From: Tabrizicola sp.
GTDB lineage: Bacteria > Pseudomonadota > Alphaproteobacteria > Rhodobacterales > Rhodobacteraceae
Reading direction: 5' to 3'
Assembly (NCBI GenBank): GCA_016792685.1
Contig: JAEULQ010000013.1
Span: 1-51,077 of the forward strand
DNA length: 51,077 nt
In this document: positions 28,338-50,908 of the stretch, one piece after another
Layout of the letters: every line of letters starts with the position of its first letter
How positions within the stretch are numbered: position 1 is the first letter of the stretch
The notes under the pieces: model-generated
What the model saw: only the letters and a program-made list of their open reading frames with translations
Databases searched by the model: none
What the model was told of the DNA's origin: nothing
Program-made: the position numbers and the translations under genes

Positions 28338-29276
28338 TCAAGCGGCCGCGATCGCCTCGGCAATCACCAGCACGTTCTTCGCCATTCGCTCGCTGGCTGC
28401 GTCGATCATCTTGCCGTCCAGGCTCGCCGCCCCCTTGCCCTGGGCCTCGGCCGCCTTCAGCTCCTCGATGATCCGCCGCGCCTTGGTCACCTCGGCATCG
28501 GTCGGCGAGAAGACCTCGTTGGCCAGCGCCACCTGGCTGGGGTGGATCGCCCATTTCCCCTCGCAACCCAAAGCCGCCGCGCGCCGGGCGCCCGCCTTGT
28601 AGCCCTCGGGGTCCGAGAAATCGCCGAACGGCCCGTCGATGGGACGCAGGCCATAGGCCCGGCAGGCCGTGACCATCCGCGCAATCGCCGCATGCCACTG
28701 GTCGCCCGGATAGGCGGGGTTCAGGCCGCCGATATTCGTGGTCCGCGCCCGCATCGAGGCCGCGAAATCCGCCACGCCGAAATGCAGGGCCTCCAATCGC
28801 CCGCCGAACTGGGCGATCGCCTCGACATTGGCCATGCCAAGTGCCGTCTCGATCAGCGCCTCCAGCCCGACCCGGGTCTGGAACCCCTTGGCCATCTCGA
28901 TCTGGTTCACCATGGCCTCGACCATGTAAAGGTCACCCGGCACGCCCACTTTCGGCACCAGAAGCGTGTGGACCTTGTCGCCCGCCTGCTCCATCACATC
29001 GACCACGTCGCGGTACATGTAATGCGTATCAAGCCCGTTGATCCGGACCGAGACGGTCTTGCCCTTCGCTGCCCAGTCGATGTCATTCAGCGCCTGGATG
29101 CAGTTCCTGCGGGCCTGCTCCTTCTCCGGCGGCGCCACCGCGTCCTCCAGATCCAGGAAGATGTAATCGGCCGCGCTGGAGGCCGCCTTGTCGATCATCA
29201 CCGGGTTCGAGGCCGGGACCGCAAGCTCAGACCGCTGCAGGCGCTGTTTCTTCAAAGGGTGTAGGGTGTGGCTCAT
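28338..29276 (-). CDS. mclA: Malyl-CoA lyase (HpcH/CitE family)
   Basis: 312 residues of the CitE-like fold. Metal-binding and catalytic blocks are seen: [63 protein letters not shown] and [14 protein letters not shown]. It cleaves malyl-CoA to glyoxylate and acetyl-CoA (and can act on beta-methylmalyl-CoA). In the serine cycle this supplies glyoxylate for the aminotransferase encoded 3 bp upstream. The overall sequence fits MclA/Mcl1 of Rhodobacter and methylotrophs. Confidence 0.9.
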
Positions 29277-29279
29277 GTC

Positions 29280-30479
29280 TTACTCCGCTGCCAGCGCCAC
29301 GGCCGGGGCCGCGACGTCATAGATTTCCTGCGCCGCTGCCACGCCCGAGCCGAAGGCGATCTTCGCCCCCGCCGCGCTCAGCGACAGTTCCGCCAGGCCT
29401 AGCGCCGTCAGGCACATGCCTTCGTTCAGATCGCCCAGATGCCCGATGCGGAACACCTTGCCTGCCAGTTGCGACAGGCCGGTCCCGAACGAGATGTTGA
29501 AGCGTTCCAGCCCGATCCGGATCACGTCGCGCGCATCCACACCCTCGGGCGTCCGGATCGCCGTGACCGTGTCCGAGGCAAGCGAGGGGTGTTCGGCGCA
29601 GATTTCCAGTCCCCAGGCCGCAACCCCAGCACGGACCCCTGCGGCAAGCCGGGCGTGGCGGGCGTGGACATTGGCCAGCCCCTCGGTGTGCAACCGGTCC
29701 AGCGCCGCTCGCAGCCCGTGCAGAAGCGGCGTCGGCGGGGTGGCGGGGAAGTAGCCAGTCTGGGCAGTAACCGCATAGTCGGCGAAGGAAAAATAGCTCC
29801 GCCGCATCGTGTTGGTCGCGGCCGCCCGCATCGCCTTGGGGCTGACCGCCAGGATCCCGAGGCCGGCCGGGGCCATCAGGCCCTTCTGGCTGCCGGTGAC
29901 CGCCAGATCGACACCCCAATCGTCCATCCGGAACGGGATCGACCCGATCGACGACACCCCATCGACGAAGAGGAGCGCGTCATGGAAGCTTGCATCCAGT
30001 GCCTCCCGTACCCCTTTCACATCCGAGGTCACCCCGGTCGCGGTCTCGTTGTGGGTGACGAAGACCGCCTTGATCTTGCCCTCGCGGTCCGCTGCCAGTC
30101 GCCGGGCGAATTCACTGACGGGCGCCCCCGCGCCCCAGGCGACATCGACGATCTCGACATCCAGCCCAAGGTCCGCGGCCATCTTCGCCCAGAGGGTGGA
30201 AAACTGACCGTGTCGTGCCATCAGCACCCGGTCGCCCGGGTTCAGCGTGTTGACGATGGCCGCCTCCCATGCGCCGGTGCCCGAGCCGGGGAAGAGCATC
30301 ACTGTCGCGTCCGCAGTGGCAAAGAGCGGCTTCAGGTCGCGCAGGATCGACAGGACAAAGGCGCCGAATTCCGGGCCGCGCTGGTCCTGCTGGGCGACGT
30401 TCATCGCCATCCGGACCTGTTCAGGCACATTGGTCGGGCCGGGAATGTAGAGATGGTTCAAACCGGGTCTGAAAGGCAT
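29280..30479 (-). CDS. sgaA: Serine-glyoxylate aminotransferase
   Basis: 399 residues, class V PLP aminotransferase. The N-terminus NHLYIPGPTNVPEQVRMAMN is typical of serine/alanine-glyoxylate aminotransferases; VDGVSSIGSIPF and Lys199 in VTGSQKGLM form the PLP site. It moves the amino group of serine to glyoxylate, giving hydroxypyruvate and glycine. First gene of a four-gene minus-strand operon (sgaA, mclA, mtkA, mtkB) that is the glyoxylate-regenerating half of the serine cycle. Divergent from an ScfR/RamB-type regulator. Confidence 0.93.
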   Translation of the reverse strand: MPFRPGLNHLYIPGPTNVPEQVRMAMNVAQQDQRGPEFGAFVLSILRDLKPLFATADATVMLFPGSGTGAWEAAIVNTLNPGDRVLMARHGQFSTLWAKMAADLGLDVEIVDVAWGAGAPVSEFARRLAADREGKIKAVFVTHNETATGVTSDVKGVREALDASFHDALLFVDGVSSIGSIPFRMDDWGVDLAVTGSQKGLMAPAGLGILAVSPKAMRAAATNTMRRSYFSFADYAVTAQTGYFPATPPTPLLHGLRAALDRLHTEGLANVHARHARLAAGVRAGVAAWGLEICAEHPSLASDTVTAIRTPEGVDARDVIRIGLERFNISFGTGLSQLAGKVFRIGHLGDLNEGMCLTALGLAELSLSAAGAKIAFGSGVAAAQEIYDVAAPAVALAAE

Positions 30480-30621
30480 GGGCTCCTCCTCTTCGGGCGA
30501 CCATGCGGTGTGAGACGGGCCACGGCAAATCGTCTCGGGTTTCGCTGTGACTGCATTAATTTACAGATCGTGAATCTTGTAATAATGTAAACATGACATA
30601 GCAGATTATGTGTACAACGGC
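30480..30621. promoter_or_regulatory. Divergent operator region, serine-cycle operon / ScfR-type regulator
   Basis: 142 bp with a distinctly AT-rich core at 30555-30605. It contains TTTACA (30560-30565) facing TTGTAA (30578-30583) and TGTAAA (30586-30591), an inverted plus direct arrangement that is a natural operator candidate for the divergent regulator. The TTTGCAAA half-site reported for related PccR-type regulators is not present. Confidence 0.5.
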
Positions 30622-32016
30622 ATGCAGAAGACCTTCATTGGCCCCCAGCTCCGCCGCCTTCGGCAAGAGCGTGGCGAGACCCAGGCGAGCCTTGCCAAGG
30701 CGCTCGGCATCTCAGCTTCCTACGTCAACTTACTGGAAAACAACGAAAGATCGGTTTCGGTCCAAGTTCTCCTGAAACTGATGGAAGCCTACGGCGTCGA
30801 TTGGCGCGACCTGGCGGATGACACGGTGGGCTCGATGCTCTCCGACCTCCGCGCCAGTTTGCAGGACCCGATCTTTACAGGCCACCGCCCCGACCTGACC
30901 CAATTGCGTGGCGCGCTGGCCCATGCCCCCGATCTGGCCGCCGCGTTTCTGCGCCTGCATCGTGCCTATGGCGCAGCGCTGGACCGGCTTTCGGCCCTCT
31001 CGCAGGACAGCCCCGATCCCGCCGCCTCGCCCGAGGCGGGGGTCCACAGCTTCTTCCGCCGCAACCGCAACCATTTCCGCGAGCTGGAACTGGCCGCCGA
31101 AGGCTTCTGGGACGGGCTCCGCCCTGAACGGGATGACATCTATGCCGCGCTCAAGGCCCGGCTCCGCGACCGGATGGGGATCGCTGTCCGCCTCACCCGG
31201 GTCGAGGACATGCCGGGGGCGCTTCGGACCTATGACGAACACCGCCGCGAGATCCGGTTGTCCGAGGCGCTTGATCACACCAACCGCTGCTTCCAGCTTG
31301 CCCATATGTGCGCGCTTCTCGCCTGGCGTGGGTTGTTGGACAGCCTGGTCCAGCGTTCAGGCCTGGAGGACCCGCCAACCGCCTCGCGCCTGCGGGTGGA
31401 ATTGGCGAACTACTTCGCCGCAGCAATCCTGATGCCCTACGACGCGTTCCTCGCCGAAGCGCGGGCCACGAAATACGACTTCGACCTGATGGCCACCCGC
31501 TTCGGCGTGAGCTTCGAGCAGGCCTGCCACCGCGCAACCACGCTTCAGCGCGAAGGCGGGCTGGGCGTTCCGTTCTTCTTCCTGCGCATCGACAAGGGCG
31601 GCAACGTCACCAAGCGCTTCAACGCGACCGAATTTCCGCTTGCCGAATTCGGCGGCGCCTGCCCCCGTCTGGACGTCCATACGAGCTTCCGCACCCCCGG
31701 CCGCATCGTCCCGCAGTTTGTCGAGATGCCGGACGGCAGCCGATATTTCGTGGTCTCGCGGACCGTGGACCGGCCAAGCTGGTTTCGCCATGCGCAAGAC
31801 AACCGGCTCGCGGTCGCGATGGGCTGCGCCATCGAATTTGCCCCGCAGATCGGCTATGCCGAGGGGCTTTCGGTGACCACTGCGCAGATTACACCCATCG
31901 GCATCAACTGCCGCATCTGCCCGCGCAGCGGCTGTGACCAACGCGCGCATCAGGCGGTGATCGATACCCGGCCCGTGGACGAACTTCGCCGGGGCGCGAC
32001 GCGTTTCGACGGTTGA
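30622..32016 (+). CDS. ScfR/RamB-type transcriptional regulator (XRE HTH + ImmA-like + C-terminal Cys domain)
   Basis: 464 residues from ATG 30622; a GTG at 30610 is an alternative. The N-terminal XRE helix-turn-helix (RRLRQERGETQASLAKALGI, then SASYVNLLENNERSVS) is followed by a long IrrE/ImmA-like part (ELANYFAAAILMPYDAFLAEA) and a C-terminal domain with clustered Cys (INCRICPRSGCDQRAHQ). This layout is that of short-chain fatty acyl-CoA regulators (RamB, PccR, MccR), which sense acyl-CoAs and control acetate, propionate and glyoxylate genes. Divergent from the serine-cycle operon, so it probably governs it in response to an acyl-CoA such as acetyl- or malyl-CoA (inference). Confidence 0.9.
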   Translation: MQKTFIGPQLRRLRQERGETQASLAKALGISASYVNLLENNERSVSVQVLLKLMEAYGVDWRDLADDTVGSMLSDLRASLQDPIFTGHRPDLTQLRGALAHAPDLAAAFLRLHRAYGAALDRLSALSQDSPDPAASPEAGVHSFFRRNRNHFRELELAAEGFWDGLRPERDDIYAALKARLRDRMGIAVRLTRVEDMPGALRTYDEHRREIRLSEALDHTNRCFQLAHMCALLAWRGLLDSLVQRSGLEDPPTASRLRVELANYFAAAILMPYDAFLAEARATKYDFDLMATRFGVSFEQACHRATTLQREGGLGVPFFFLRIDKGGNVTKRFNATEFPLAEFGGACPRLDVHTSFRTPGRIVPQFVEMPDGSRYFVVSRTVDRPSWFRHAQDNRLAVAMGCAIEFAPQIGYAEGLSVTTAQITPIGINCRICPRSGCDQRAHQAVIDTRPVDELRRGATRFDG

Positions 32017-32036: not shown

Positions 32037-32540
32037 CTAGATCGGTGCGAGCCGATGAAAGCGGCTTTGCTCATAGACCAGCGGGGCAGGGGCCTCGACC
32101 TCCGCCCCTACACGAATGTGGGTGATCTGCCCGATGACCACCTGATGCGTGCCCGCGATCAGGCTTTCGCTGACCGTGCAGGAGAGGCTGACCACCGCGC
32201 CCTGCAGAACCGGCAGGCCGTGCTCGTCCTCCCGCCAGTCTCCTACCTTGAACTTGGCCTCGCCAGACGCGCCGCCAACCCCGGCAAAACAAAGCGCGAT
32301 GTCGCCGCCATCGCCCGGCAACAGGTTGACGACGAAGCGGCCGGTCTGGGCCACGGCCGCGCAGGTGCCGGTCTTGCGGTTGAGGCAGACGAGAAGGCTT
32401 GGCGGATCGGCGGTGACAGAAGCCACCGCCGTCGCCGTGATCCCGCGCCGTTCGCCTTCCGGCGTCAGGCTGGTCACGATGGTCACCGCGCCGGGAAACC
32501 GGGCCATGGCCTGGCGGAACCCGGCGGGATCAACGGGCAT
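32037..32540 (-). CDS. Flavin reductase, StyB-like component of a two-component monooxygenase
   Basis: 167 residues from ATG 32540 (GTG at 32546 is possible). FRQAMARFPGAVTIVTSLTP, GITATAVASVTADPPSLLVC and FVVNLL are hallmark blocks of the flavin reductase (FMN-binding split barrel) family. It reduces free flavin with NAD(P)H and supplies FADH2 to the partner monooxygenase. Its gene follows the StyA-like gene with 7 bp between stop and start. Last gene of the SDR-monooxygenase-reductase operon. Confidence 0.93.
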   Translation of the reverse strand: MPVDPAGFRQAMARFPGAVTIVTSLTPEGERRGITATAVASVTADPPSLLVCLNRKTGTCAAVAQTGRFVVNLLPGDGGDIALCFAGVGGASGEAKFKVGDWREDEHGLPVLQGAVVSLSCTVSESLIAGTHQVVIGQITHIRVGAEVEAPAPLVYEQSRFHRLAPI

Positions 32541-32547
32541 CGTCACT

Positions 32548-33780
32548 TCAGGCCGCCTTCAGCTCGGACAGATAGCTTGCCGCGGCATTGGGATCGGCAA
32601 ACCACGGGAAGAAGTCGCGTGGATCATCGAAGCCGTTGGCCATCCGATGCGCGAGCTTTGGCAGCACGCAGGCGTTGCCCATGATGTCCAGAATGAAGGG
32701 CGGCGGTGGCAGCAAAAGCATGTTGGTCCATTGCACAACCCAGCGCGCATAATCCCAGAACTCGTTGAAGGTGCCCTGCATCCAAGCCTCGTCAAAGGGC
32801 CGGTTGCCCTGGTCAAGGATGCGACGCAGATAGACCGCTGCCGCCTTGGAGGCGTTGTTCGACCCCTGCCCGGTGATCGGGTCGTTCAGACAGACCGCAT
32901 CGCCCAGACCCAGCACTTTTCGCCCCGAAGGCAGGGTCGCCACCGGGTGCCGGATCGTGGGGGCAAAGCGGCCCGCGAGGATCCCGTTGTCGTCCGTCAG
33001 CTGACAATTCTTCGACCGCTCGTATTCCCAGGGCAGGAAGGTCTTGAGGATCCACAGCGATTTCTCCAGGTGCTGCGCGGGGGTCTTCACCTCGCCCCAG
33101 CAATCCATCGGCCCGCCGGGGATGCCCTCGAAGACCATGATCTCGCAAGGACCGGTCGTGGTCAGCGCCGGGAAGACGAAATATTCGCCCACACCGGGGA
33201 TCAGGTTGAACTCCACCGCGGAATGCGGCTGGCGCGGGGTCATCCCGGTGACATAGGTCAACGCAAGGGCCCGCATCGGTTTGTCATAGGCCGACTTCTC
33301 CGCATCGCGCGCAAACATCGCCCCAACCTCGCCCTTGCCCGAGGCGACGATCACCAGATCGTCCTCGGCGGCATAGCTCTCGATCTCGGCAATCCCGGCA
33401 TCGGCGATCACAAGCTCGCCGCCCAGACGCTGGAACTCCTCCAGCCAGCGCGGCATCTTTACCCGCTGATCGACCGCATAGCCGTTGCGCTCAAGCTTTC
33501 CGGTCCAGTCGATCACCTTTGTCCCCGAACCGTCCGGGTTCGGGACGATGAAGTTGATCCCCTGGACCGGCGGGCAGCTCTCTGACCAGTAGTCGATCCC
33601 GAGGTCGCGTTCGTGCTGGACCGCATTGGCGAACATGCATTGCGAGGACAGGACCCGCCCGGCCGCGATCTCTGCCCCCGTCCGGTTCTGGACCACCCGG
33701 ACTTGATGCCCCGCCTTCCGAAGGCCGATCGCAACCATCAGGCCCGACTGGCCACCGCCAACTATGGTGAATTTCCGCAT
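32548..33780 (-). CDS. StyA-like FAD-dependent monooxygenase (styrene/indole monooxygenase family)
   Basis: 410 residues. FAD-binding GGGQSG at 8-13 and the second FAD block GLGDAVCLNDPITGQGSNNA at 291-310 align with StyA of Pseudomonas; DLVIVASGKGEVG (141-153) and ALALTYVTGM match the same family. StyA-type enzymes use diffusible FADH2 to epoxidise styrene or oxidise indole at the 2,3 bond. The partner reductase gene directly follows. Clustering with a kynureninase-like/isatin-hydrolase-like fusion and an AndR-like regulator points to indole or an indole derivative rather than styrene; no styrene oxide isomerase is present. Substrate is inference. Confidence 0.88.
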   Translation of the reverse strand: MRKFTIVGGGQSGLMVAIGLRKAGHQVRVVQNRTGAEIAAGRVLSSQCMFANAVQHERDLGIDYWSESCPPVQGINFIVPNPDGSGTKVIDWTGKLERNGYAVDQRVKMPRWLEEFQRLGGELVIADAGIAEIESYAAEDDLVIVASGKGEVGAMFARDAEKSAYDKPMRALALTYVTGMTPRQPHSAVEFNLIPGVGEYFVFPALTTTGPCEIMVFEGIPGGPMDCWGEVKTPAQHLEKSLWILKTFLPWEYERSKNCQLTDDNGILAGRFAPTIRHPVATLPSGRKVLGLGDAVCLNDPITGQGSNNASKAAAVYLRRILDQGNRPFDEAWMQGTFNEFWDYARWVVQWTNMLLLPPPPFILDIMGNACVLPKLAHRMANGFDDPRDFFPWFADPNAAASYLSELKAA

Positions 33781-33805
33781 CGCTCAACTCCCTGATTTCT
33801 TGTGA

Positions 33806-34573
33806 TTATGCCATCAGCTTCGGTATGGCGGGCTCGGCCTGCTCCGGCCCCATGGCCGTGTATCCGCCATCCACCCGGATATCCGTTCCGGTGATGAATC
33901 CCGCCTCGTCCGAACACAGGAACAGGACCGCCGCCGCCACTTCCTCGGGGTCGCCGACCCGGCCGAGAAGGTGAAACGGTGCCGCCACCGCATCGGTCTT
34001 TGCCCGGTCGCCACCGGTAAGCTGGTCCATGATGTTGGACCAGGTCCATCCGGGGCTGACCGCGTTCACCCTTATGCCCTTCGGTGCCAGGTCCATCGCC
34101 TGGTTCCGCGTGAGCTGCAGGATCGCGGCCTTCGACACCGGATAAAGCCAGCGCCCGGTCTGCGCCACGCGGGACGAGATCGAGCCGAAATTGACGATCG
34201 CCCCCCGGTTCCGTTCCAGTTCCTCCAGCGCCGCCTGCATCAGGACGACCGAGCCCACGACGTTGACGTTGAAGCTTTCCAGCCATTCCGCGCGGGAGGA
34301 CGCCGCGCCATTGTCCAGATAGCTGCAGGCGACATTCACCAGAAAGTCGATCCGCCCGAACCGTGCCTTCGTGGCCGCGACCAGCGCCGTGATCTGGGCA
34401 TCGTCGCGCAGATCGCAGGTCTGGAAGGCCACGCCCTCCGGCAGATCATTCCCCGGCACGATGTCGGCCACCATGACCTTTGCCCCCGCCGCAACGAAGG
34501 CCGCGACCACCGCCCGGCCGATCTTGGTGCAGCCTCCCGGCACGATTGCCACTTTCCCGGCCAGTCCGCGCAT
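33806..34573 (-). CDS. Atypical short-chain dehydrogenase/reductase
   Basis: 255 residues from ATG 34573, with GGAGG 6 nt upstream. The SDR fold is clear, with Ser131 (NFGSISS), Tyr144 and Lys148 (YPVSKAA) and the C-terminal GFITGTDIRVDGGY. Two normally conserved motifs are changed: the cofactor loop TGG is PGG (VPGGCTKIG, Pro12) and NNAG is NVAC (VNVACSY). It may still bind NAD(P) but with altered geometry. First gene of the operon with the StyA/StyB-like monooxygenase; in known indole oxidation clusters an SDR oxidises the dihydrodiol or hydroxyindoline intermediate, so a similar role is plausible. Confidence 0.88.
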   Translation of the reverse strand: MRGLAGKVAIVPGGCTKIGRAVVAAFVAAGAKVMVADIVPGNDLPEGVAFQTCDLRDDAQITALVAATKARFGRIDFLVNVACSYLDNGAASSRAEWLESFNVNVVGSVVLMQAALEELERNRGAIVNFGSISSRVAQTGRWLYPVSKAAILQLTRNQAMDLAPKGIRVNAVSPGWTWSNIMDQLTGGDRAKTDAVAAPFHLLGRVGDPEEVAAAVLFLCSDEAGFITGTDIRVDGGYTAMGPEQAEPAIPKLMA

Positions 34574-34739
34574 CCGACACCTCCAGCAATTGTTTGAACT
34601 TGAAAGATTTGTGCCGATCCTTGTGCCGCGCACTATCCGCCGGGCGCGGGGACTATCCGGAAAACGAAAAAATCCTGCGGCGACCCGTCGCAGCGCGGGC
34701 TTCCGTGTTAGGCTGTGCCCAGAATGAACCGGGGACCGG
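34574..34739. promoter_or_regulatory. Divergent operator with AraC-type direct repeats
   Basis: This 166-bp spacer separates the SDR/monooxygenase operon from the AraC regulator gene. ACTATCCG occurs at 34632-34639 and again at 34652-34659, same orientation, 20-bp period, i.e. the same helix face: the classic layout of an AraC-family dimer site. A second direct repeat TTGTGCCG (34609-34616, 34621-34628) lies nearer the SDR gene. AT-rich DNA with TTGAA-c-TTGAA (34595-34605) follows and may hold the SDR -10 region. Confidence 0.6.
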
Positions 34740-35744
34740 ATGGCGCAGGCACTGCTCAGGGACCACGCCCTTTTCCACTCGCACGACCTCGACGAGGCAC
34801 GCGAGCGGGTGGCGGCCGTCTTTTGCCCGCACCGGCTTGAGACGCTGGGAGCGCAAAGCCTGCTTGATGCGCGTCATCATCATCTGCCCGGCCAGCGCCT
34901 GTCGCTCAACTACATCGAATACGGCGCCCGCACGCTGATCGAGCCGGGCGAGCTTGATGGCTTCTACCTCTTGCAGATCCCGCTGGATGGCGGGGCAACG
35001 ATCACCAACGGGCGCGAGACCTATCTGTCCACACCCGACCGTGCGGCCATTCTGAACCCGCATCTGCCGACCCGGATGACCTGGGAAGAAGGGACCCGCC
35101 AGGTTTTGGTGCAGATCACCCGCCGCGCAATGCAGGATCATCTGGCCGGCCTCCTCGGCGCGCCCTCCGACCGACCCCTGACTTTCGAGGGACCGATCGA
35201 CCTGACGCAGGGCGCCGGGGCAGCACTTCGGCGGCTTGTCATGTGGCTGGTCAGCGAGGTCGATGCCGGGGCGCCGCCCATCGGGCCGGGCCTCATGGCG
35301 CGACAGATCGAAAGCACGGTCCTCTCTGGCCTGCTCGAGGCCCGTCACGACCATCAGGCCCAGCTGTCCCGGCACCGGTCCGCGCCGCGTCCGCGCCACC
35401 TGCGATTGGCCGAAGGCTATATCGAAGCGCATCTCGACCAGCAGATCACGCTGGAAGAAGTGGCCGATGCGGCAGGCATCTCGCCTCGTGGCCTGCAAAT
35501 GGCTTTCCGCACCTTCCGCGACACCACGCCCTTGGCCTTCTGGCGGGCCACGCGGCTGGACCGTGCCCATGCCGATCTTCTGGCAGCCCCACCCGGCACA
35601 CGCGTCACCGATATCGCGCTGCGTTGGGGCTTCACACATTTCGGCCGCTTTGCCGAGCTTTACCGCGAACGCTTTGGCCTTTCGCCACGCGACACGCTGA
35701 AGGCGCCCTTCCCGGAAGAAAGCGCCGCTGAGGCGGAAAGCTGA
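34740..35744 (+). CDS. AraC-family transcriptional regulator (AndR/EutR-like)
   Basis: 334 residues. The N-terminal AraC-binding-like domain (LSLNYIEYGARTLIEPGELD, then FYLLQIPLDGGATI) precedes two C-terminal helix-turn-helix motifs: ITLEEVADAAGISPRGLQMA near 240-260 and ITDIALRWGF-type TDIALRWGFTHFGRFAELYR near 290-310. The overall form matches the AraC_binding_2 group that includes AndR, activator of anthranilate dioxygenase genes. Transcribed divergently from the monooxygenase operon and upstream of the phosphatase and fusion genes, it is placed to activate both sides, probably through the ACTATCCG repeats. Confidence 0.9.
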   Translation: MAQALLRDHALFHSHDLDEARERVAAVFCPHRLETLGAQSLLDARHHHLPGQRLSLNYIEYGARTLIEPGELDGFYLLQIPLDGGATITNGRETYLSTPDRAAILNPHLPTRMTWEEGTRQVLVQITRRAMQDHLAGLLGAPSDRPLTFEGPIDLTQGAGAALRRLVMWLVSEVDAGAPPIGPGLMARQIESTVLSGLLEARHDHQAQLSRHRSAPRPRHLRLAEGYIEAHLDQQITLEEVADAAGISPRGLQMAFRTFRDTTPLAFWRATRLDRAHADLLAAPPGTRVTDIALRWGFTHFGRFAELYRERFGLSPRDTLKAPFPEESAAEAES

Positions 35745-35850: not shown

Positions 35851-36630
35851 ATGACCGGTTCAACCACCAGCAACGGGGACGAGGCGCTCGACCTTCTGTC
35901 CCGGATCCTGGGTCTGGCGGGCGCGCAGTCCCTGGCGCTTTTCAACAGCATGGCCCTGCGGCAGGTGGATGCCAAGTCGCCCGGCGACCTGGTTTCGGAT
36001 GCCGACCGCGCGGTAGAGGCGACGCTTCGCGACCTTCTTGGCCAGGACTTCCCCGACTGCGACATCCTGGGCGAGGAATTCGGTGGCACGGCCAGCCCGC
36101 GCTTCTGGGCCGTGGACCCCATCGACGGCACCTCGAACTTCCTTTCCGGACTGCCATACTGGACGATCTCGCTTGGCCTGATCGTAGACGGCTCGCCCGT
36201 GATGGGCGGCATCGTTGCCCCGGCGATGGGCCTTTCTGCGGTTGGTTCGGTGGGCGGCGGCTTGCGCCTGACAGGCCTTGAGCCCGGCTCGCGCCCGATC
36301 GATCCCCCCTGCATCGGCCTTGGCCGCAACGACCGCTGGCCCGCCCCGGACCGACACGCCGTCGAGGCAGCGATCGAGGCCTCGGGTCATGCCCCCCGCC
36401 TCTTCGGTTCCTGCGCGCTGTCCCTGATGCTCGTCGCCGCAGGTCGGATGAAGGGCTATGTCGAGCCCCGGGTCGGCGGGCTTTGGGATTGCGCAGGGGG
36501 CCTGGCGCTGTGCCGCGCGGCAGGCCTGCCCACGGCCTTCAAGGTCCATCCGGACGGAACCGTGGATGTGCTGGCGGGCGAGGTTTTCGATCTGGTCGGA
36601 AATCCGGATTGGGTGGCCGAACTGACCTAG
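35851..36630 (+). CDS. Inositol-monophosphatase-family phosphatase
   Basis: 259 residues from ATG 35851, with GGGGGG upstream; an earlier in-frame start at 35761 adds a segment with no family similarity. Metal-site motifs are present: ILGEEFGG (Glu pair), VDPIDGTSNF and GLWDCAGGLALCRAAG (WD motif). The family dephosphorylates inositol phosphate, histidinol phosphate, fructose bisphosphate or PAP in a magnesium-dependent manner; which one here is unknown. It lies between the AraC gene and the kynureninase-like fusion gene; a role in the same pathway is not obvious from its family. Confidence 0.88.
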   Translation: MTGSTTSNGDEALDLLSRILGLAGAQSLALFNSMALRQVDAKSPGDLVSDADRAVEATLRDLLGQDFPDCDILGEEFGGTASPRFWAVDPIDGTSNFLSGLPYWTISLGLIVDGSPVMGGIVAPAMGLSAVGSVGGGLRLTGLEPGSRPIDPPCIGLGRNDRWPAPDRHAVEAAIEASGHAPRLFGSCALSLMLVAAGRMKGYVEPRVGGLWDCAGGLALCRAAGLPTAFKVHPDGTVDVLAGEVFDLVGNPDWVAELT

Positions 36631-36679: not shown

Positions 36680-36749
36680 ACATCTTGAGGCGCCCCCGGA
36701 TTTCTCCTATCGTCCCTTTGCACCAACGGGGCGGGAAGGACGGGATCAC

Positions 36750-38726
36750 TTGGCCAGCAACAGCACGGCGGGGGGCTATTTCCTCTATCATTCCATCGGC
36801 ATCTATCCCGGCAAGGAAGAGGACATGGCCCGTGCCATGGCCGAATTCTCCGAGGTCTGGGCCGCCCCGAACGACAAGCAGTGGGGCTATGTCCTGCGCA
36901 AGCGGCAGGATTTCATCGACCGCTGGCGTCGGCTGATCAACGTCCCGAAAGGCAGCCTCACGACTGTCGACAATGTCACCGAAGGCCTGCAGAAGATCCT
37001 CCGCGCCCTGCCCGAGGGGAGCTTGCGGGGCAAGCGGGTTCTGACGTCCGCCGACTGCTTTCCCTCGCTTCACTTTCTTCTTCAGGGCCTTGCCCCGAAG
37101 ATGGGCTTCACCCTGACCACGGTCCCCTTGTCCGAAGGCCGCGCGTGGGTCGAGACCGAGGATTTCCTCGCCCACTGGGGCCCGGATGTCGGGCTCGCGC
37201 TGCTGACCTGGGTGACCTCGATCGGGTCGTCCAAGATGGACTACCCGGCCCTCGTCGCTCACGGCCGCGCGATGGGCAGCCTTATGGTCGCCGACATCAC
37301 CCAAGGGGCGGGCCTGATGCCCTTTGACGCGTTGAACCCGCGGGTCGATTTCGTCGTCTCGACCAGCCTCAAATGGCTTTGCGGTACGCCGGGGGCCGGC
37401 ATCCTTTACGCTGACAAGGACCTGATCCCGATGCTGTCGCCCGAGGGGCGGGGGTGGTTCAGCCAGAACAACCCCTTCTCCTGGGATCTGGACCGTTTCG
37501 AATACGCCCCCGACATCCGGCGTTTCGACACCGGCACGCCGGGGTCGGTGGCGGCCGTCGCCTCCCTTCCGGCGATGGAGTGGTTCTCGAAGCAGGACCT
37601 TCGTGACGTCTCCGCCCACAATCGCCGCCTGGTGGACCGGGTCATCGAACGTGCCGACCGGTTGTCGCTTCCCCTTCACTCTCCCCGCGACGCGGATAAG
37701 CGCGGCGGGGCGGTGATGATCCGGATGCCCGACAAGGCCGAGGCCGCCGCCTGCGTTGGCGCCTTGGGGGTCGAAGGATACTCGGTCGATTTCCGTGGTC
37801 CGATCCTGCGGATGTCGCCGGGCTTTGTGACCGAGGAACGCGCGGTGGACGCGGTCTTTGACATGGTCGAAGAGGTGATGACCCGCCGCCGCCGCCGCTT
37901 TGCGGGGCAGGGCGGGGCCACGACCGGCGCAGGGGAGATTCTGGCGGATCTGGCCTCGGGGCTCGCGTCCGGCGGGGTGCGGGTCGTGGACCTGACCGCT
38001 CAGCTGGGGCCGGAAACCCCGATCCTGCGACTGCCCGAGGACCTTGCCCGGAACACGCCGAAAGTGGCGATCCACCGGATAAGTGAATACGACAAGGACG
38101 GCCCCTTCTGGGCCTGGAACTGGCTTGAGCTTGGCGAACACTCCGGCACGCATTTCGACGTGCCGCACCATTGGCTGTCGGGCAAGGACCATCCGGACGG
38201 GTTCACCGATACCCTGTCCGTCCAGCGCCTGATCGCGCCCGCCAATGTCATCGACTGTTCGGCCGAAGCCGCCGCAGACCCCGATTTTCTGCTGACCGCC
38301 CAGCACGTTAAGGCCTGGGAGGCCAGACACGGCGAAATCGGTCCGGGCGAGTGGGTGCTGATGCGGACCGACTGGGACAAGCGGTCCCATGACGAGGCGC
38401 TGTTCCTGAACGAGGATCCCGATCCTAACGAGGACGGCTCGCATTCCCCGGGCCCCTCGACCGACTGCATCGACTACCTGCTGGGCAAGGGGATCGTCGG
38501 CTGGGGCACGCAATGCATCGGGACAGATGCGGGGATGGCCGGCAAGTTCAGCCCACCCTTCCCGGCGCACAACTTCCTGCATCGGGACAATTGCTTTGGC
38601 CTCGCAAGCCTTTGCAATCTTGACCAGTTGCCGCCGAAGGGCGCGATCCTGATTGCGGCGCCCCTGAAGATCAAGGACGGTACCGGCTCGCCGATCCGGG
38701 CACTGGCCCTGGTGACGGGTCGCTGA
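36750..38726 (+). CDS. Fusion protein: kynureninase-like PLP enzyme + cyclase-family hydrolase (isatin hydrolase/kynurenine formamidase type)
   Basis: 658 residues from TTG 36750, the only initiation codon after the preceding gene that has a ribosome-binding site (GGAAGGA 36733-36739). Residues 1-380 are a class V PLP fold close to kynureninase: YFLYHSIGIYPG, ADITQGAG (Asp182, Gln185), PLP Lys208 in STSLKWLCGTPGAG, and GWFSQNNPFSWD with RRFDTGTPGS. Residues about 408-658 are a metal-dependent cyclase domain: VRVVDLTAQLGPETPI, then HSGTHFDVPHHW (464-475) supplying the metal ligands, GTDAGMAG and the terminal LPPKGAILIAAPLKIKDG. The linker 381-407 is Arg- and Gly-rich. Each half is full length. 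An internal ATG (37878) with AGAGG upstream might also give the hydrolase alone. Likely converts an indole or kynurenine derivative toward anthranilate. Confidence 0.85.
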   Translation: MASNSTAGGYFLYHSIGIYPGKEEDMARAMAEFSEVWAAPNDKQWGYVLRKRQDFIDRWRRLINVPKGSLTTVDNVTEGLQKILRALPEGSLRGKRVLTSADCFPSLHFLLQGLAPKMGFTLTTVPLSEGRAWVETEDFLAHWGPDVGLALLTWVTSIGSSKMDYPALVAHGRAMGSLMVADITQGAGLMPFDALNPRVDFVVSTSLKWLCGTPGAGILYADKDLIPMLSPEGRGWFSQNNPFSWDLDRFEYAPDIRRFDTGTPGSVAAVASLPAMEWFSKQDLRDVSAHNRRLVDRVIERADRLSLPLHSPRDADKRGGAVMIRMPDKAEAAACVGALGVEGYSVDFRGPILRMSPGFVTEERAVDAVFDMVEEVMTRRRRRFAGQGGATTGAGEILADLASGLASGGVRVVDLTAQLGPETPILRLPEDLARNTPKVAIHRISEYDKDGPFWAWNWLELGEHSGTHFDVPHHWLSGKDHPDGFTDTLSVQRLIAPANVIDCSAEAAADPDFLLTAQHVKAWEARHGEIGPGEWVLMRTDWDKRSHDEALFLNEDPDPNEDGSHSPGPSTDCIDYLLGKGIVGWGTQCIGTDAGMAGKFSPPFPAHNFLHRDNCFGLASLCNLDQLPPKGAILIAAPLKIKDGTGSPIRALALVTGR

Positions 38727-38925: not shown

Positions 38926-39408
38926 ATGACCGTGAAAAACCCCACTTTCCGACAGACCCGGCGTTCCTTGCCAATCGCTCTCCTCCGCGCCCGTGAGACC
39001 GTAATGGGACCGTTGCGCGACATGCTCGCGACTTCGGGCGTGAATGAGCAGAAGTGGCGGGTCCTGCGGGTCTTGCAGGAACGGGGGCCGCTTGAGCTGA
39101 GCCAGGTTGCCGCCGAAGCGGTGCTGCTTCTGTCCAGCCTGACCCGCATGGTCGGGCCTATGGTGGAAGAGGGGCTGATCTCGCGCATGACCCCGCCCGA
39201 AGATCGTCGCAAGACGATTGTCGCGATCACTCCGGCCGGACTGGCACTGGTCAATGCCCATGCCGGCCAAAGCGCGGCGATCCTTGGTCGCATCGAGGCT
39301 GGCTTCGGTCGCGACCGGCTTGAGCAGCTGCTTGATCTGCTTGAGGACCTGCAGAAGCTGGACCTTCGCAGCGGCCCGACCGAGGCTGTTGGCAAGACCA
39401 AGCGTTAA
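38926..39408 (+). CDS. MarR-family transcriptional regulator (HpaR-like)
   Basis: 160 residues with the winged helix of the MarR family: NEQKWRVLRVLQERGPLELS, QVAAEAVLLLSSLTRMV and the wing PPEDRRKTIVAITPAG. The start RQTRRSLPIALLRARETVM is that of the homoprotocatechuate operon repressor HpaR. HpaR-type regulators respond to aromatic acids. Following the aromatic-type fusion gene and preceding an unrelated sugar operon, it most likely represses the former and itself. Confidence 0.88.
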   Translation: MTVKNPTFRQTRRSLPIALLRARETVMGPLRDMLATSGVNEQKWRVLRVLQERGPLELSQVAAEAVLLLSSLTRMVGPMVEEGLISRMTPPEDRRKTIVAITPAGLALVNAHAGQSAAILGRIEAGFGRDRLEQLLDLLEDLQKLDLRSGPTEAVGKTKR

Positions 39409-47553: not shown

Positions 47554-48666
47554 ATGGGCTTTCTCGATATCCGCAATGTCACCAAATCCTACGGGCCGGT
47601 CCAGGTCCTGCATCGCATCGACATCGCTGTCGAGGAGGGGGAGTTCCTGGTCCTCGTCGGCCCCTCGGGCTGCGGCAAGTCCACGCTTCTGAACATGATC
47701 GCGGGACTGGAAGCCATCACGGACGGTGAGATCGCAATCAAGGGCAGGGTGGTGAACGGGGTCCATCCGTCAAAGCGCAACATTGCCATGGTGTTCCAAA
47801 GCTATGCTTTGTACCCGAACATGACCGTGGGCCAGAACATGACTTTCGGGCTTGAGATGCACGGCGTCCCGAAGCCCGAGCGCGACCGCGCCCTGGCCGA
47901 TGTGGCAAAGCTTCTGCAGATCGAGACGCTCCTTGACCGCAAGCCGGGCCAGCTCTCCGGCGGCCAGCGGCAGCGCGTGGCCATGGGCCGGGCGCTCGTC
48001 CGCAACCCTGACGTGTTCCTCTTTGACGAACCGCTCTCCAACCTTGACGCCAAGCTCCGCGTCGACATGCGGACGGAAATCAAGAAGCTGCACCAGAAGC
48101 TCAAGACCACCATCGTCTATGTCACCCACGACCAGATCGAGGCGCTGACCCTCTCCACCCGCATCGCGGTGATGAACAAGGGCCATGTCCAGCAGCTTGG
48201 CACGCCGAAAGAGATCTACGACACCCCCGCGAACCTGTTTGTCGCGACCTTCATGGGCAGCCCGGCGATGAATATCGTCCCCGCCACCGTAGTGATGGAG
48301 AATGGTCACCCCCACGCCGCCCTGACCGACGCCGACGGCGGGGTCCACCGCCTGCGCTTCTCTCAGGCCAACCTCGCCGCCTGGGAGGGTAAACCCATCC
48401 TGCTCGGCATCCGCCCCGAGGCGATCACCGACCCCGAAGGCGCCGACCGCAAATCCGGCAACATCCAGCCCTTCAGCAACCGTGTGACCGTGACCGAACC
48501 GGCGGGATCCGACACCTTCGTCACCATGACGCTTTCGGGCAAGGACGTGATCGCCCGCATGCGCGCCGATGCCAATGTCACGCCCGGCCAAAGCTTCGAC
48601 TTCGCCATCAACATGGAGAAGGCGGTAGCTTTCGATCCGGCAACCGAGGCACGGATCCCCGCCTGA
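47554..48666 (+). CDS. Sugar ABC transporter ATPase (UgpC/MalK type)
   Basis: 370 residues: Walker A GPSGCGKST (36-44), Q-loop MVFQSYALYPNMTV, signature LSGGQRQRVAMGRAL, Walker B VFLFDEPLSNLD, and the H-loop VTHDQIEA. The C-terminal TOBE regulatory region is present (LFVATFMGSPAMNIVPA, GIRPEAI), as in MalK/UgpC. It energises the CUT1 importer. The stop shares a base with the GMC gene start (TGATG). Confidence 0.94.
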   Translation: MGFLDIRNVTKSYGPVQVLHRIDIAVEEGEFLVLVGPSGCGKSTLLNMIAGLEAITDGEIAIKGRVVNGVHPSKRNIAMVFQSYALYPNMTVGQNMTFGLEMHGVPKPERDRALADVAKLLQIETLLDRKPGQLSGGQRQRVAMGRALVRNPDVFLFDEPLSNLDAKLRVDMRTEIKKLHQKLKTTIVYVTHDQIEALTLSTRIAVMNKGHVQQLGTPKEIYDTPANLFVATFMGSPAMNIVPATVVMENGHPHAALTDADGGVHRLRFSQANLAAWEGKPILLGIRPEAITDPEGADRKSGNIQPFSNRVTVTEPAGSDTFVTMTLSGKDVIARMRADANVTPGQSFDFAINMEKAVAFDPATEARIPA

Positions 48667-50153
48667 TGCAACCCGACGTCATCATCATCGGCTCGGGGAT
48701 GGGAGGGGCGACGCTGGCTGCCGCTCTGGCACCCACCGGCCGCCGCATCCTGATCCTGGAACGCGGCGAGCGTCTGCAAGACAGCCCCGAAGCCCGTGAT
48801 CCCACCGCCATCTTCCGCCGAGGCCATTACAAGCCGAACGAGACCTGGCGCGACATCTCGGGCGCGCCCCTCCACCCCGGCAACTATGCCTATGTCGGCG
48901 GCAACACCAAGTTCTACGGCGCCGTGCTCCTCCGCTACCGGGCCGAGGATTTCGCGCCGCTCCGTCATATGGAAGGCACGACCCCCGGTTGGCCGATCAG
49001 CTACGACACGCTGGAGCCATGGTATTCCAGGGCCGAAACCCTCTACCGCGTCCGGGGCGACGTGGCGGGCGACCCGTCCGAGCCCCCGCACTCCGCGCCC
49101 TATCCGTTTCCGCCCGTCCCGGATGAGCCCGACATCCAGCGCCTCCGCGCCGCCTTCGCCGCGCAGGGCCTGCACGTCTCAGCGCTCCCATTGGGCGTTG
49201 ATATCGACGCATGGCTGAAACGCGCGCCCACGACCTGGGACGCCTTTCCTTGCACAACCGGCGCCAAGTCCGACGCCGAAAGCTGCGGCCTGGCCGAGGC
49301 GCTGAAGCACCCGAATGTCACCCTTCAGACCGGAACCAGGGTCACCCGTATCCTGTCCCAGGGCCGCCGCGTCACCGGCGTCGAAACCGACAGGGCAGGG
49401 GTGCGCGAGACCCTTTCAGCCCCCATCGTCGTCCTTGCCGCTGGGGCGATCCTCTCCTCCGCGCTCCTTCTCGCCAGCGCCAGTGACGACCACCCGAGCG
49501 GCCTTGCGAACCGCTCCGACCAGGTAGGCCGTAACTTCATGAACCACAACCTGACCGGAATGGTCGCCTACAACCCCTTCCGCCGGAACTGCACGACCTA
49601 TGAAAAAACCATCCAGGTCAACGACTTCTACCTGACCGGCGGCCCCGAAGGCGAACCCTTGGGCAACATCCAGATGCTCGGCCGGATCACCGGCCCGATC
49701 CTGGCGGGCGAGGCGAACCTTCCCCTCTGGCTCTCCCGCCACATCGCCGACCACTCGATCCACATCATGGCCATGTCCGAAGACTTGCCAGACCCCAACT
49801 CCCGCGTCCTCTGGCGGAATGGCGAGGTCACGCTCGACTGGCGCAAGACGAACACCAAGGCCCATGACCTGCTTGTGAAACGCCTGAAGCTGGCCATGCG
49901 CAAGGCCGGCTGGCCGATCACCCTGTCCCGAGGTTTCCCGAAATCGAAACCCTCGCACCAATGCGGCACCAACCGGATGGGCGCGGACCCCGCGACCTCT
50001 GTAGTGGACGTGAACCTCAAGGCCCACGATCTCGACAACCTCTACATCTGCGACGCCTCGGTCCTGCCGACCTCCGCCGCCGTGAACCCCTCGCTCACCA
50101 TCGCCGCCCTCGCCCTGCGTGCGGGCGACCACATCGCCAAGGCAACGTCATGA
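48666..50153 (+). CDS. GMC-family FAD oxidoreductase (sugar 3-dehydrogenase-like)
   Basis: 495 residues. FAD site GSGMGG (9-14) followed by ILERGE, the GMC block YVGGNTKFYGAVLLRYRAED, a central VVLAAGAILSSALLL, and the C-terminal GMC domain SHQCGTNRMGADPATSVVD with NPSLTIAALALRAGDHI. It has no signal peptide, so it is cytoplasmic unless exported with a partner. The group oxidises sugars or polyols, some at C3. In this operon it may form a keto-sugar that the Gfo/Idh enzyme or SDR handles next. Overlaps the SDR gene (ATGA). Confidence 0.9.
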   Translation: MQPDVIIIGSGMGGATLAAALAPTGRRILILERGERLQDSPEARDPTAIFRRGHYKPNETWRDISGAPLHPGNYAYVGGNTKFYGAVLLRYRAEDFAPLRHMEGTTPGWPISYDTLEPWYSRAETLYRVRGDVAGDPSEPPHSAPYPFPPVPDEPDIQRLRAAFAAQGLHVSALPLGVDIDAWLKRAPTTWDAFPCTTGAKSDAESCGLAEALKHPNVTLQTGTRVTRILSQGRRVTGVETDRAGVRETLSAPIVVLAAGAILSSALLLASASDDHPSGLANRSDQVGRNFMNHNLTGMVAYNPFRRNCTTYEKTIQVNDFYLTGGPEGEPLGNIQMLGRITGPILAGEANLPLWLSRHIADHSIHIMAMSEDLPDPNSRVLWRNGEVTLDWRKTNTKAHDLLVKRLKLAMRKAGWPITLSRGFPKSKPSHQCGTNRMGADPATSVVDVNLKAHDLDNLYICDASVLPTSAAVNPSLTIAALALRAGDHIAKATS

Positions 50154-50908
50154 AACCGCTCGCCCTTGTCACCGGAGGCCAGCAGGGCATCGGCCTCGGC
50201 ATCGCCCAGGCCCTGGCTTCCCAAGGCTTCCGCCTCGCCATCGCCTCGCGTTCCGGCCCCGAGGACACCCCCGTCCGGGAAGCGCTGACAGCCCTGGGCC
50301 CCGACGCCCGCTACTACCGCCACGACCTTTCCGACCTCGCCGCGATCCCCGAGCTTCTCGGCCGGATCGAGGCTGAGCAAGGCGCCCTCGATGCCCTGAT
50401 CCAGAACGCCGGAGTGGCCGCGAAAGTCCGTGGAGACATGCTCGACATCACGCCCGAGAACTTCGACTGGATCATGGGTATCAACCTGCGTGGCGCCTTC
50501 TTCCTTGCGCAAGCCGTGGCGAAGCGCATGCTCGCCACACAAAGCCCCCATTACCGCTCGATCACCTTCGTCACCTCCGTTTCGGCCCAGATGGCCAGCC
50601 CGGAACGTGCCGACTACTGCATCTCCAAGGCCGCCGCTGGTATGGCCGCCCAGACCCTCGCCCTACGTCTTGCCCCGCACGGCATCGGCGTCTTCGAACT
50701 ACGCCCCGGCATCATCGAGACCGGCATGACCGCGGGCGTGAAGGACAAATACACCGCCCGCATCGAAGGCGGCCTCGTCCCCGCCGGCCGCTGGGGCCAG
50801 CCTGCCGACATCGGCCAGGCCGTGATCCCGCTTGTCACCGGCCAGATGGCCTTCGCCACCGGCGCGGTCATCCCCGTCGACGGCGGCCTCTCGATCGAAA
50901 GACTGTAA
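50150..50908 (+). CDS. Short-chain dehydrogenase (3-ketoacyl reductase/sugar dehydrogenase-like)
   Basis: 252 residues from ATG 50150, overlapping the GMC stop. TGGQQGIG near residues 8-15 binds the cofactor, QNAG replaces the usual NNAG, the catalytic Ser lies in [10 protein letters not shown], and YCISKAA supplies Tyr and Lys. [15 protein letters not shown] is a standard SDR ending. It would reduce or oxidise a keto/hydroxy group with NAD(P). The next gene begins one base after its stop. Confidence 0.9.

Follow-up and report, generated by a model that had tools for sequence, protein, structure and literature searches.

What might a single polypeptide do that joins a relative of kynureninase to a relative of isatin hydrolase? 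The question is raised by a gene on contig JAEULQ010000013.1 of Tabrizicola sp. (assembly GCA_016792685.1, genome 88.86% complete), whose positions 1-51,077 were analysed and are here called the window. The gene (Table 1) encodes a genuine two-domain enzyme, in which a class V pyridoxal phosphate (PLP) enzyme is followed by a domain that looks like an isatin hydrolase. The probable role of the fusion is to release isatin and then open its ring, as part of a poorly known pathway by which oxidised tryptophan or indole is degraded.

No stop codon occurs within 36750-38726 of the forward strand, which forms a single open frame, as had been stated in an earlier interpretation of this DNA (hereafter the sequence-only reading), together with its TTG start. 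The same frame is open upstream of 36750, and the longest mechanically called open reading frame begins at 36483. The codon aligned with the TTG at 36750 is ATG or TTG in 22 of 23 complete relatives (locus L017 is offset by one codon), and AAGGA lies at 36736-36740, 9 nt ahead of it; the relatives' aligned starts and this element support TTG 36750 as the predicted start of the fused protein. Both domains are complete, as the sequence-only reading had held. Aminotran_5 (PF00266; 70.6 bits, cut-off 21.5) and Cyclase (PF04199; 114.6 bits, cut-off 23.1) both match the one protein in Pfam, and all the expected motifs were found, namely Lys208 (37371-37373), Asp182, GWFSQNNPF and RRFDTGTPG in the PLP half and GEHSGTHFDVPHHW in the hydrolase half, with GEHSGTHFD coded at 38133-38159. 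At 37878, where an internal start was proposed, the codon is ATG; 15 aligned rows keep its Met and L095 has Leu. Nothing seen beyond this mostly kept Met supports the putative start, and none of the evidence here favours the proposal that the TTG or the internal start serves expression tuning.

Table 1. Coordinates of the fused gene, its parts and its neighbours in the window
Feature	Coordinates	Strand	Remarks
Fused gene, kynureninase-like class V PLP enzyme + isatin hydrolase, 658 residues	36750..38726	+	TTG start
PLP domain, residues 1-380	36750..37889	+	Schiff-base Lys208 at 37371-37373; preceding residue Leu, not Tyr
Linker, about 30 residues, sequence variable	37890..37985	+	In frame across aligned relatives
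Isatin hydrolase (cyclase family) domain	37986..38723	+	Pfam match 37986-38531; PDB 4j0n/4m8d 74% identity
Flavin reductase, probable partner of indole/styrene monooxygenase	32037..32546	-	PF01613; 50% to L119 homologue
Styrene/indole-monooxygenase-like flavoenzyme, probable indole oxidation step	32548..33780	-	PF17885; StyA 206 of 550 bits
Short-chain dehydrogenase, indole module	33806..34633	-	75% to L119 homologue; true start maybe nearer 34573
AraC-type regulator, AndR-like	34740..35744	+	179 of 350 bits
Inositol-phosphatase-family gene, HisN-like, below cut-off	35851..36630	+	Adjoins fusion in several close relatives
MarR-type regulator, 3' of fusion	38926..39408	+	HpaR model 121.3 of 121.2 bits

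The sequence-only reading had allowed for a frameshift or stop at the junction of the two domains; the junction reads through in independent assemblies. As the synonymous substitution rate (dS) moreover exceeds the nonsynonymous rate (dN) in the PLP, linker and hydrolase segments in 14 pairwise comparisons, the junction is genuine, and a sequencing or assembly artefact was rejected on the read-through and the excess of dS in all three segments. Against 11 close relatives the window gene gives dN/dS values of about 0.06-0.10 for the PLP segment, 0.03-0.06 for the hydrolase and 0.09-0.42 for the linker; the corresponding values against the more distant L013, L014 and L017 are about 0.20-0.24, 0.10-0.11 and about 0.5-0.8.

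Relatives were drawn from two collections: a sample of 394 Rhodobacteraceae genomes representing 393 genera (G-numbers, G000 being the window's own genome), and loci from a pattern-plus-tblastn scan (L-numbers), where 79 loci were kept from the best 80 short-peptide-pattern matches. Because the collections overlap, their fusion counts are not additive. In the genome sample two to three candidates were scored per genome and the matches listed end near E 4e-29, absences in it being provisional; unfused PLP relatives were accepted at 37% identity or more and B-type hydrolases at 60% or more, and, as the sampled genomes are related, Fisher values for co-occurrence are not independent. The search for homologues with both domains found full-length fusions in 15 of the 394 genomes, so that the two halves are not always separate genes; had they been, this would have told against the sequence-only reading. 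Among the 79 loci, 23 cover both domains fully (L003-L022, L024, L025 and L027), 22 of them intact and L022 frameshifted; L023 spans both domains yet ends at a contig edge. An unfused relative of the PLP half is present in 35 of the sampled genomes and an unfused B-type hydrolase in 58, these groups overlapping, and seven of the 15 fused genomes additionally hold an unfused B-type hydrolase.

Trees were built on a chosen subset of rows, comprising 24 unfused PLP rows, 19 unfused hydrolase rows and 24 of the 39 fused rows (the window, 23 loci and 15 genomes, less duplicates such as L010/G191, L013/G137, L014/G222 and L017/G024). The fused hydrolase domains form a single clade (24/24 rows, support 99/97), and the fused PLP domains fall into a group (support 99/99) that also takes in three unfused rows, L097, L098 and L099. 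The topology suits one fusion event followed by losses of the hydrolase half, their exact number being unsure. It might be argued that the fusion arose by chance from gene order, two independent, co-expressed enzymes being joined with no functional coupling: the linker is variable, its dN/dS is high in the three more distant comparisons, and the PLP tree needs three label changes, which means that the halves may have been parted again. This is improbable, given the single clade of fused hydrolase domains, the purifying selection across genera, and the close spacing of the separate genes (4.3-14.1 kb) in 12 of the 30 genomes that have both.

The C-terminal half has as its best PDB match in phmmer the isatin hydrolase B of Labrenzia (4j0n; 443 bits, E 1.2e-131), and its top Foldseek matches are 4m8d and 4j0n at 73-74% identity, followed by the A-type isatin hydrolases at about 49%. 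The HSGTHFD motif, to which we ascribe a presumed metal role in isatin hydrolases, is identical between this half and the solved enzymes. A kynurenine formamidase of the KynB type was rejected, the score against its model (TIGR03035) being 25.7 bits, below the cut-off of 223.05. The C-terminal half is accordingly treated here as an isatin hydrolase, with the predicted activity of converting isatin to isatinate, which bears out the isatin-hydrolase style that had been noticed in the second domain. The Labrenzia aggregata protein differs in being a stand-alone enzyme of about 263 residues.

The N-terminal half has its nearest solved relative, in sequence and in fold, in the kynureninase of Pseudomonas fluorescens (1qz9; 70 bits by sequence, 22% identity in Foldseek), the further solved relatives being cysteine/cystine lyases and desulfurases. 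The AlphaFold prediction made for the fused protein from 27 rows scored low (mean predicted local distance difference test score, pLDDT, 62.7; predicted template modelling score, pTM, 0.48), but Foldseek still named the relatives of both halves from it. Against the kynureninase model TIGR01814 the PLP half scores 39.4 bits, below the cut-off of 246.4. In an alignment of 31 family rows (8 fused, 23 unfused) with three true kynureninases, the PLP-binding Lys, an Asp, a Phe-Pro, a Trp and an Arg at the position of Arg375 in 1qz9 are invariant in all 31 rows. The residue preceding the PLP Lys (Tyr226 of 1qz9), however, is Leu in every family row and Tyr in all three kynureninases, the position of His204 is occupied by Gln in 31/31 rows, and the N-terminal motif is YHSIG in the PLP half as against GNSLG in the kynureninases. 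We take Tyr226, His204 and Arg375 to be functional residues of kynureninase, Arg375 presumably binding the substrate carboxylate. Because of the low model score and the Leu and Gln replacements, the PLP half is, judging from its sequence, a separate subfamily of class V PLP enzymes apart from kynureninase, and uncharacterised as far as seen.

The genomic context of the relatives offers a clue to the fate of the hydrolase product. A strong match to the alpha subunit of 2-oxoacid:ferredoxin oxidoreductase (E 1e-100 or better) is present in 93 of the 394 genomes overall, including 15/15 with the fusion, 31/35 with an unfused PLP relative and 58/58 with an unfused B-type hydrolase. In four of the 15 fused genomes this match lies directly 3' of the fusion (with 18 bp between the matched stretches in G201 and in G227, 11 bp in G314 and 549 bp in G024), and no second isatin-hydrolase relative is listed for these four in the genome sample, so that the fusion itself appears to feed the oxidoreductase there. 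In G227 it is the sole Cyclase-family match; further members of the wider Cyclase family occur in G024, G201 and G314. On the annotated plasmids L113, L114, L116, L119 and L120 an unfused B-type hydrolase adjoins a MarR regulator and an indolepyruvate-type oxidoreductase, accompanied in L114, L116 and L119 by a pair of CrtI/amine-oxidase-like flavoproteins. The L119 region, from an Alloyangia plasmid, additionally encodes an AraC regulator, a dehydrogenase, an indole/styrene monooxygenase and a flavin reductase (42-75% identical to the products of the window's 32037-35744), along with a protein of FAD_binding_3 + Oxidored_FMN architecture. This architecture is presumably also that of 2-aminobenzoyl-coenzyme A (CoA) monooxygenase/reductase, and on account of the gene context this assignment is preferred. 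In L136-L139 the unfused PLP gene lies between such a monooxygenase/reductase-like enzyme and the oxidoreductase, with the hydrolase beyond in L136-L138, a 3-hydroxyacyl-CoA dehydrogenase in L136, L138 and L139, and a thiolase in L139 and L041. The AraC regulator (65-68%) and parts of the indole-monooxygenase module directly adjoin the unfused PLP gene in L139 and L044, much as they stand close to the fusion in the window. Judging from these neighbours, the route probably ends in isatinate and then 2-aminobenzoyl-CoA, not in free anthranilate.

One could alternatively place the PLP half after the hydrolase, as an aminotransferase or decarboxylase acting on isatinate. In its favour, isatinate is a 2-oxoacid and the Pfam match of the PLP half is to class V aminotransferases. 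Yet the co-occurring oxidoreductase would already use isatinate, five of the 35 unfused-PLP genomes have the PLP gene without a B-type hydrolase, and lyases and desulfurases predominate among the closest solved structures, making this order of events very unlikely.

The gene order PLP-hydrolase-oxidoreductase makes the production of isatin by the PLP half the simplest assignment, and many neighbours of the PLP gene hint at an amino-acid or peptide-like substrate. They include amino-acid ATP-binding cassette (ABC) transporters with a GntR regulator (L021, L027, L112, L127 and L142), peptide ABC transporters with an M20 peptidase (L014, L128 and L153), an M20 peptidase with an MFS transporter (L121 and L122), and a relative of the acyl-homoserine lactonases (L116, L118, L130, L131, L140, L150 and L156). 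In the mechanism we propose, an imported gamma-hydroxy-alpha-amino acid bearing an oxindole would form an external aldimine in the PLP half, our best guess for this substrate being dioxindolylalanine, an oxidised tryptophan. A retro-aldol reaction would then break the C-beta/C-gamma bond to give isatin and L-alanine, the fused hydrolase would open isatin to isatinate (2-aminophenylglyoxylate, a 2-oxoacid), and the oxidoreductase would, in a chemically natural step, convert isatinate to 2-aminobenzoyl-CoA. We infer both the activities and the PLP substrate, and the complete series is put forward tentatively, its chances being a little short of even. That an isatin-type intermediate passes between the halves, as the sequence-only reading had suggested, is plausible.

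Partial chemical precedent exists: the accessible portion of one paper (PMC13397446) describes promiscuous PLP aminotransferases that join L-alanine and isatin, the reverse of the proposed reaction, and attributes to KynU and UstD the formation of gamma-hydroxy amino acids via a nucleophilic aminoacrylate. In both this chemistry and our proposal PLP would link L-alanine and isatin through a beta-aminoacrylate. The more specific claim, that the PLP half is a natural retro-aldolase (a lyase of dioxindolylalanine or a close analogue) freeing isatin and that the fusion is the entry to a salvage of damaged tryptophan, is a tentative one, with the balance somewhat against it. If true, tryptophan damaged by light or peroxide would be salvaged via isatin, isatinate and 2-aminobenzoyl-CoA, on a route that bypasses kynurenine, free anthranilate and the CoA ligase of anthranilate. 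By the same mechanism the PLP half might act on another amino-acid conjugate, such as a lactone or one bound in a peptide, and free isatin or an analogue from it. The diversity of the neighbouring transporter, peptidase and lactonase-like genes hints that related substrates are delivered by several means and would suit such a conjugate, whose support is as inferential as that for dioxindolylalanine; we regard it as unlikely.

A number of observations weigh against the release of isatin from dioxindolylalanine by the PLP half. No dioxindolylalanine-forming gene was identified, and no bacterial dioxindolylalanine pathway was evident in the titles and abstracts from a literature search. The precedents in PMC13397446 run in the synthetic direction and use other enzymes, and that portion of the paper describes no natural isatin-releasing enzyme. 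The predicted structure of the fusion is too poor for the PLP pocket to be inspected. Of the 30 genomes that hold both the unfused PLP and the unfused hydrolase gene, 15 have them on different contigs and three at a distance of 61 kb or more. The five unfused-PLP genomes without a B-type hydrolase are G070, G155, G228, G342 and G365, and in all of these except G155 an oxidoreductase match is missing too (G070 and G228 hold other Cyclase-family genes). The window genome carries its oxidoreductase and monooxygenase/reductase genes on contigs other than that of the fusion. The L119-type FAD_binding_3 + Oxidored_FMN protein passes the NCBI model for salicylyl-CoA 5-hydroxylase/oxidoreductase (1219.9 bits, cut-off 1078), and other copies of the PLP gene adjoin TRAP, TctA, or sugar- or iron-type ABC transporters. 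Finally, in G228 (L148, 9185-19901) the PLP gene stands beside a MarR regulator, a monooxygenase/reductase-like gene, a CoA ligase, a tryptophan 2,3-dioxygenase (TDO) and the first part of a kynureninase-like gene, and neither a B-type hydrolase nor an oxidoreductase match was found for this genome in the sample; these cluster neighbours suggest that the PLP gene may serve anthranilate-level chemistry there, and the region is possibly a kynurenine-to-2-aminobenzoyl-CoA cluster. In Alloyangia, too, a PLP gene lies near a divergent gene of the TDO family.

The last two loci, together with the kynureninase that is its nearest solved relative, would be explained if the PLP half were a kynureninase that has diverged to use a modified kynurenine (for example N-acylated, ring-hydroxylated or D-configured) and to give an anthranilate-type product, the hydrolase half belonging to an isatin branch that runs alongside and meets it at 2-aminobenzoyl-CoA. 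To set against this are the score far under the TIGR01814 cut-off, the replacement of the Tyr226 and His204 equivalents in every family row, and the kynureninases found elsewhere in the same genomes. A search of 30 genomes (15 fused, 12 with an unfused PLP relative, three chosen without either) gave a kynureninase over the cut-off in 27, including 12 of the 15 fused ones; in the window genome it is encoded on contig C114, adjoining a tryptophan 2,3-dioxygenase. The exceptions are G227, just under the cut-off at 244.8 bits, G201 (25.1 bits) and G314 (no match), and among the 30 genomes no tryptophan dioxygenase match was obtained in these three or in the controls G001 and G045. As both controls have a kynureninase despite this, the missing dioxygenase match is a weak argument; G201 and G314 nonetheless keep the fusion and the oxidoreductase with no kynureninase over the cut-off. 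On balance a divergent kynureninase appears rather unlikely.

A canonical kynureninase was rejected for the PLP half, which is below the model cut-off and lacks the Tyr-Lys pair, in a genome that has a separate kynureninase. Thus, of what the sequence-only reading had proposed, the genuine fusion and its isatin-hydrolase-type half stand, and the formylkynurenine/kynurenine chemistry is probably wrong, since both the KynB and the kynureninase models failed, the Tyr-Lys pair is missing and the genome has its own kynureninase beside a dioxygenase.

The place of isatin in metabolism, on which its proposed release and opening by the fusion bear, is disputed, although the compound has been detected repeatedly during the degradation of indole and auxin. 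In the parts of one study available to us (PMC9613470), the iad auxin-degradation loci of Variovorax and Bradyrhizobium are described as converting isatin to isatinic acid and on to anthranilate, with oxidoreductase genes as markers. The likeness lies in the step from isatin to isatinic acid combined with an indolepyruvate-type oxidoreductase, IadA/IadB; the iad route differs in that it starts from indole-3-acetic acid via a ring-hydroxylating dioxygenase and reportedly ends in anthranilate, and the words kynureninase and aminotransferase do not appear in the main text of that paper. The accessible sections of a review (PMC6221969) mention a suggestion that isatin in the iif route is a dead end or an artefact, and call for functional tests of isatin hydrolase. 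That nature joins an isatin hydrolase to a PLP enzyme, in some relatives next to a 2-oxoacid oxidoreductase, argues directly that isatin is a true intermediate. Should the PLP half cleave dioxindolylalanine, it would open a route for using oxidised tryptophan and provide a ready biocatalyst for gamma-hydroxy amino acids. Both domains are of known kinds; none of the titles found by full-text search, in a collection that omits much of the literature, concerns a fusion of isatin hydrolase with a kynureninase-type enzyme.

The surroundings of the fusion in the window are suggestive of indole oxidation. The genes of a predicted two-component indole oxygenase and a short-chain dehydrogenase adjoin one another at 32037-34633 on the reverse strand, their products being 50-75% identical to annotated homologues, with the monooxygenase component 68% identical to the L119 protein annotated as styrene/indole monooxygenase. 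This module may feed isatin to the hydrolase half in the window genome. The iif/ind cluster, as presented in the same sections of the review (PMC6221969), likewise combines a two-component flavin indole oxygenase with a short-chain dehydrogenase; it ends in a cofactor-independent oxygenase that yields anthranilate directly, whereas the window has the isatin hydrolase fusion near the module. The indole-oxidation module also occurs near the unfused hydrolase cluster in L061, L065, L067 and L081, and beside the unfused PLP gene in L139.

Elsewhere in the window genome an unfused hydrolase, two flavoproteins, a MarR regulator and the start of the oxidoreductase are encoded on contig C47, the rest of the oxidoreductase on C68 and the monooxygenase/reductase-like gene on C40. 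The C47 region (L124, 1-5376) places this second isatin hydrolase between the two CrtI/amine-oxidase-like flavoproteins. Flavoproteins of this kind recur next to the hydrolase in relatives, and one may guess that they could oxidise dioxindole to isatin. A luciferase-family monooxygenase and a flavin reductase occupy the interval from the PLP gene to the oxidoreductase in L138 (7073-8689); the pair is also present in L041, and the monooxygenase in L139.

A double-cupin protein recurs near the PLP gene in two bacterial classes (L121, 16231-17355; L122, 16246-17370; L014, 12074-13168; L128, 10746-11840; L140, 15573-16670; and L148, 2040-3224). Comparisons of the double-cupin and M20 neighbours of the PLP genes gave no specific function. 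The divergent TDO-family gene of Alloyangia (L112, 9872-10651) lies five genes upstream of the PLP relative and matches the family model in part. A search of 30 genomes did not locate it in the near vicinity of their PLP genes; 25 of them gave only weak matches (about 27-36% identity), which are taken for the ordinary dioxygenases of these genomes.

Two further regions of the window deserve mention. An aldolase-family gene, an aminotransferase resembling the aspartate-glyoxylate aminotransferase BhcA (533.7 bits, cut-off 650) and a helix-turn-helix regulator frame at 28338-32016 suggest a locus like that of the beta-hydroxyaspartate cycle. At 48666-50908 the frames of a GMC oxidoreductase and a short-chain dehydrogenase overlap by 193 bases as called, and the dehydrogenase frame probably starts further downstream.

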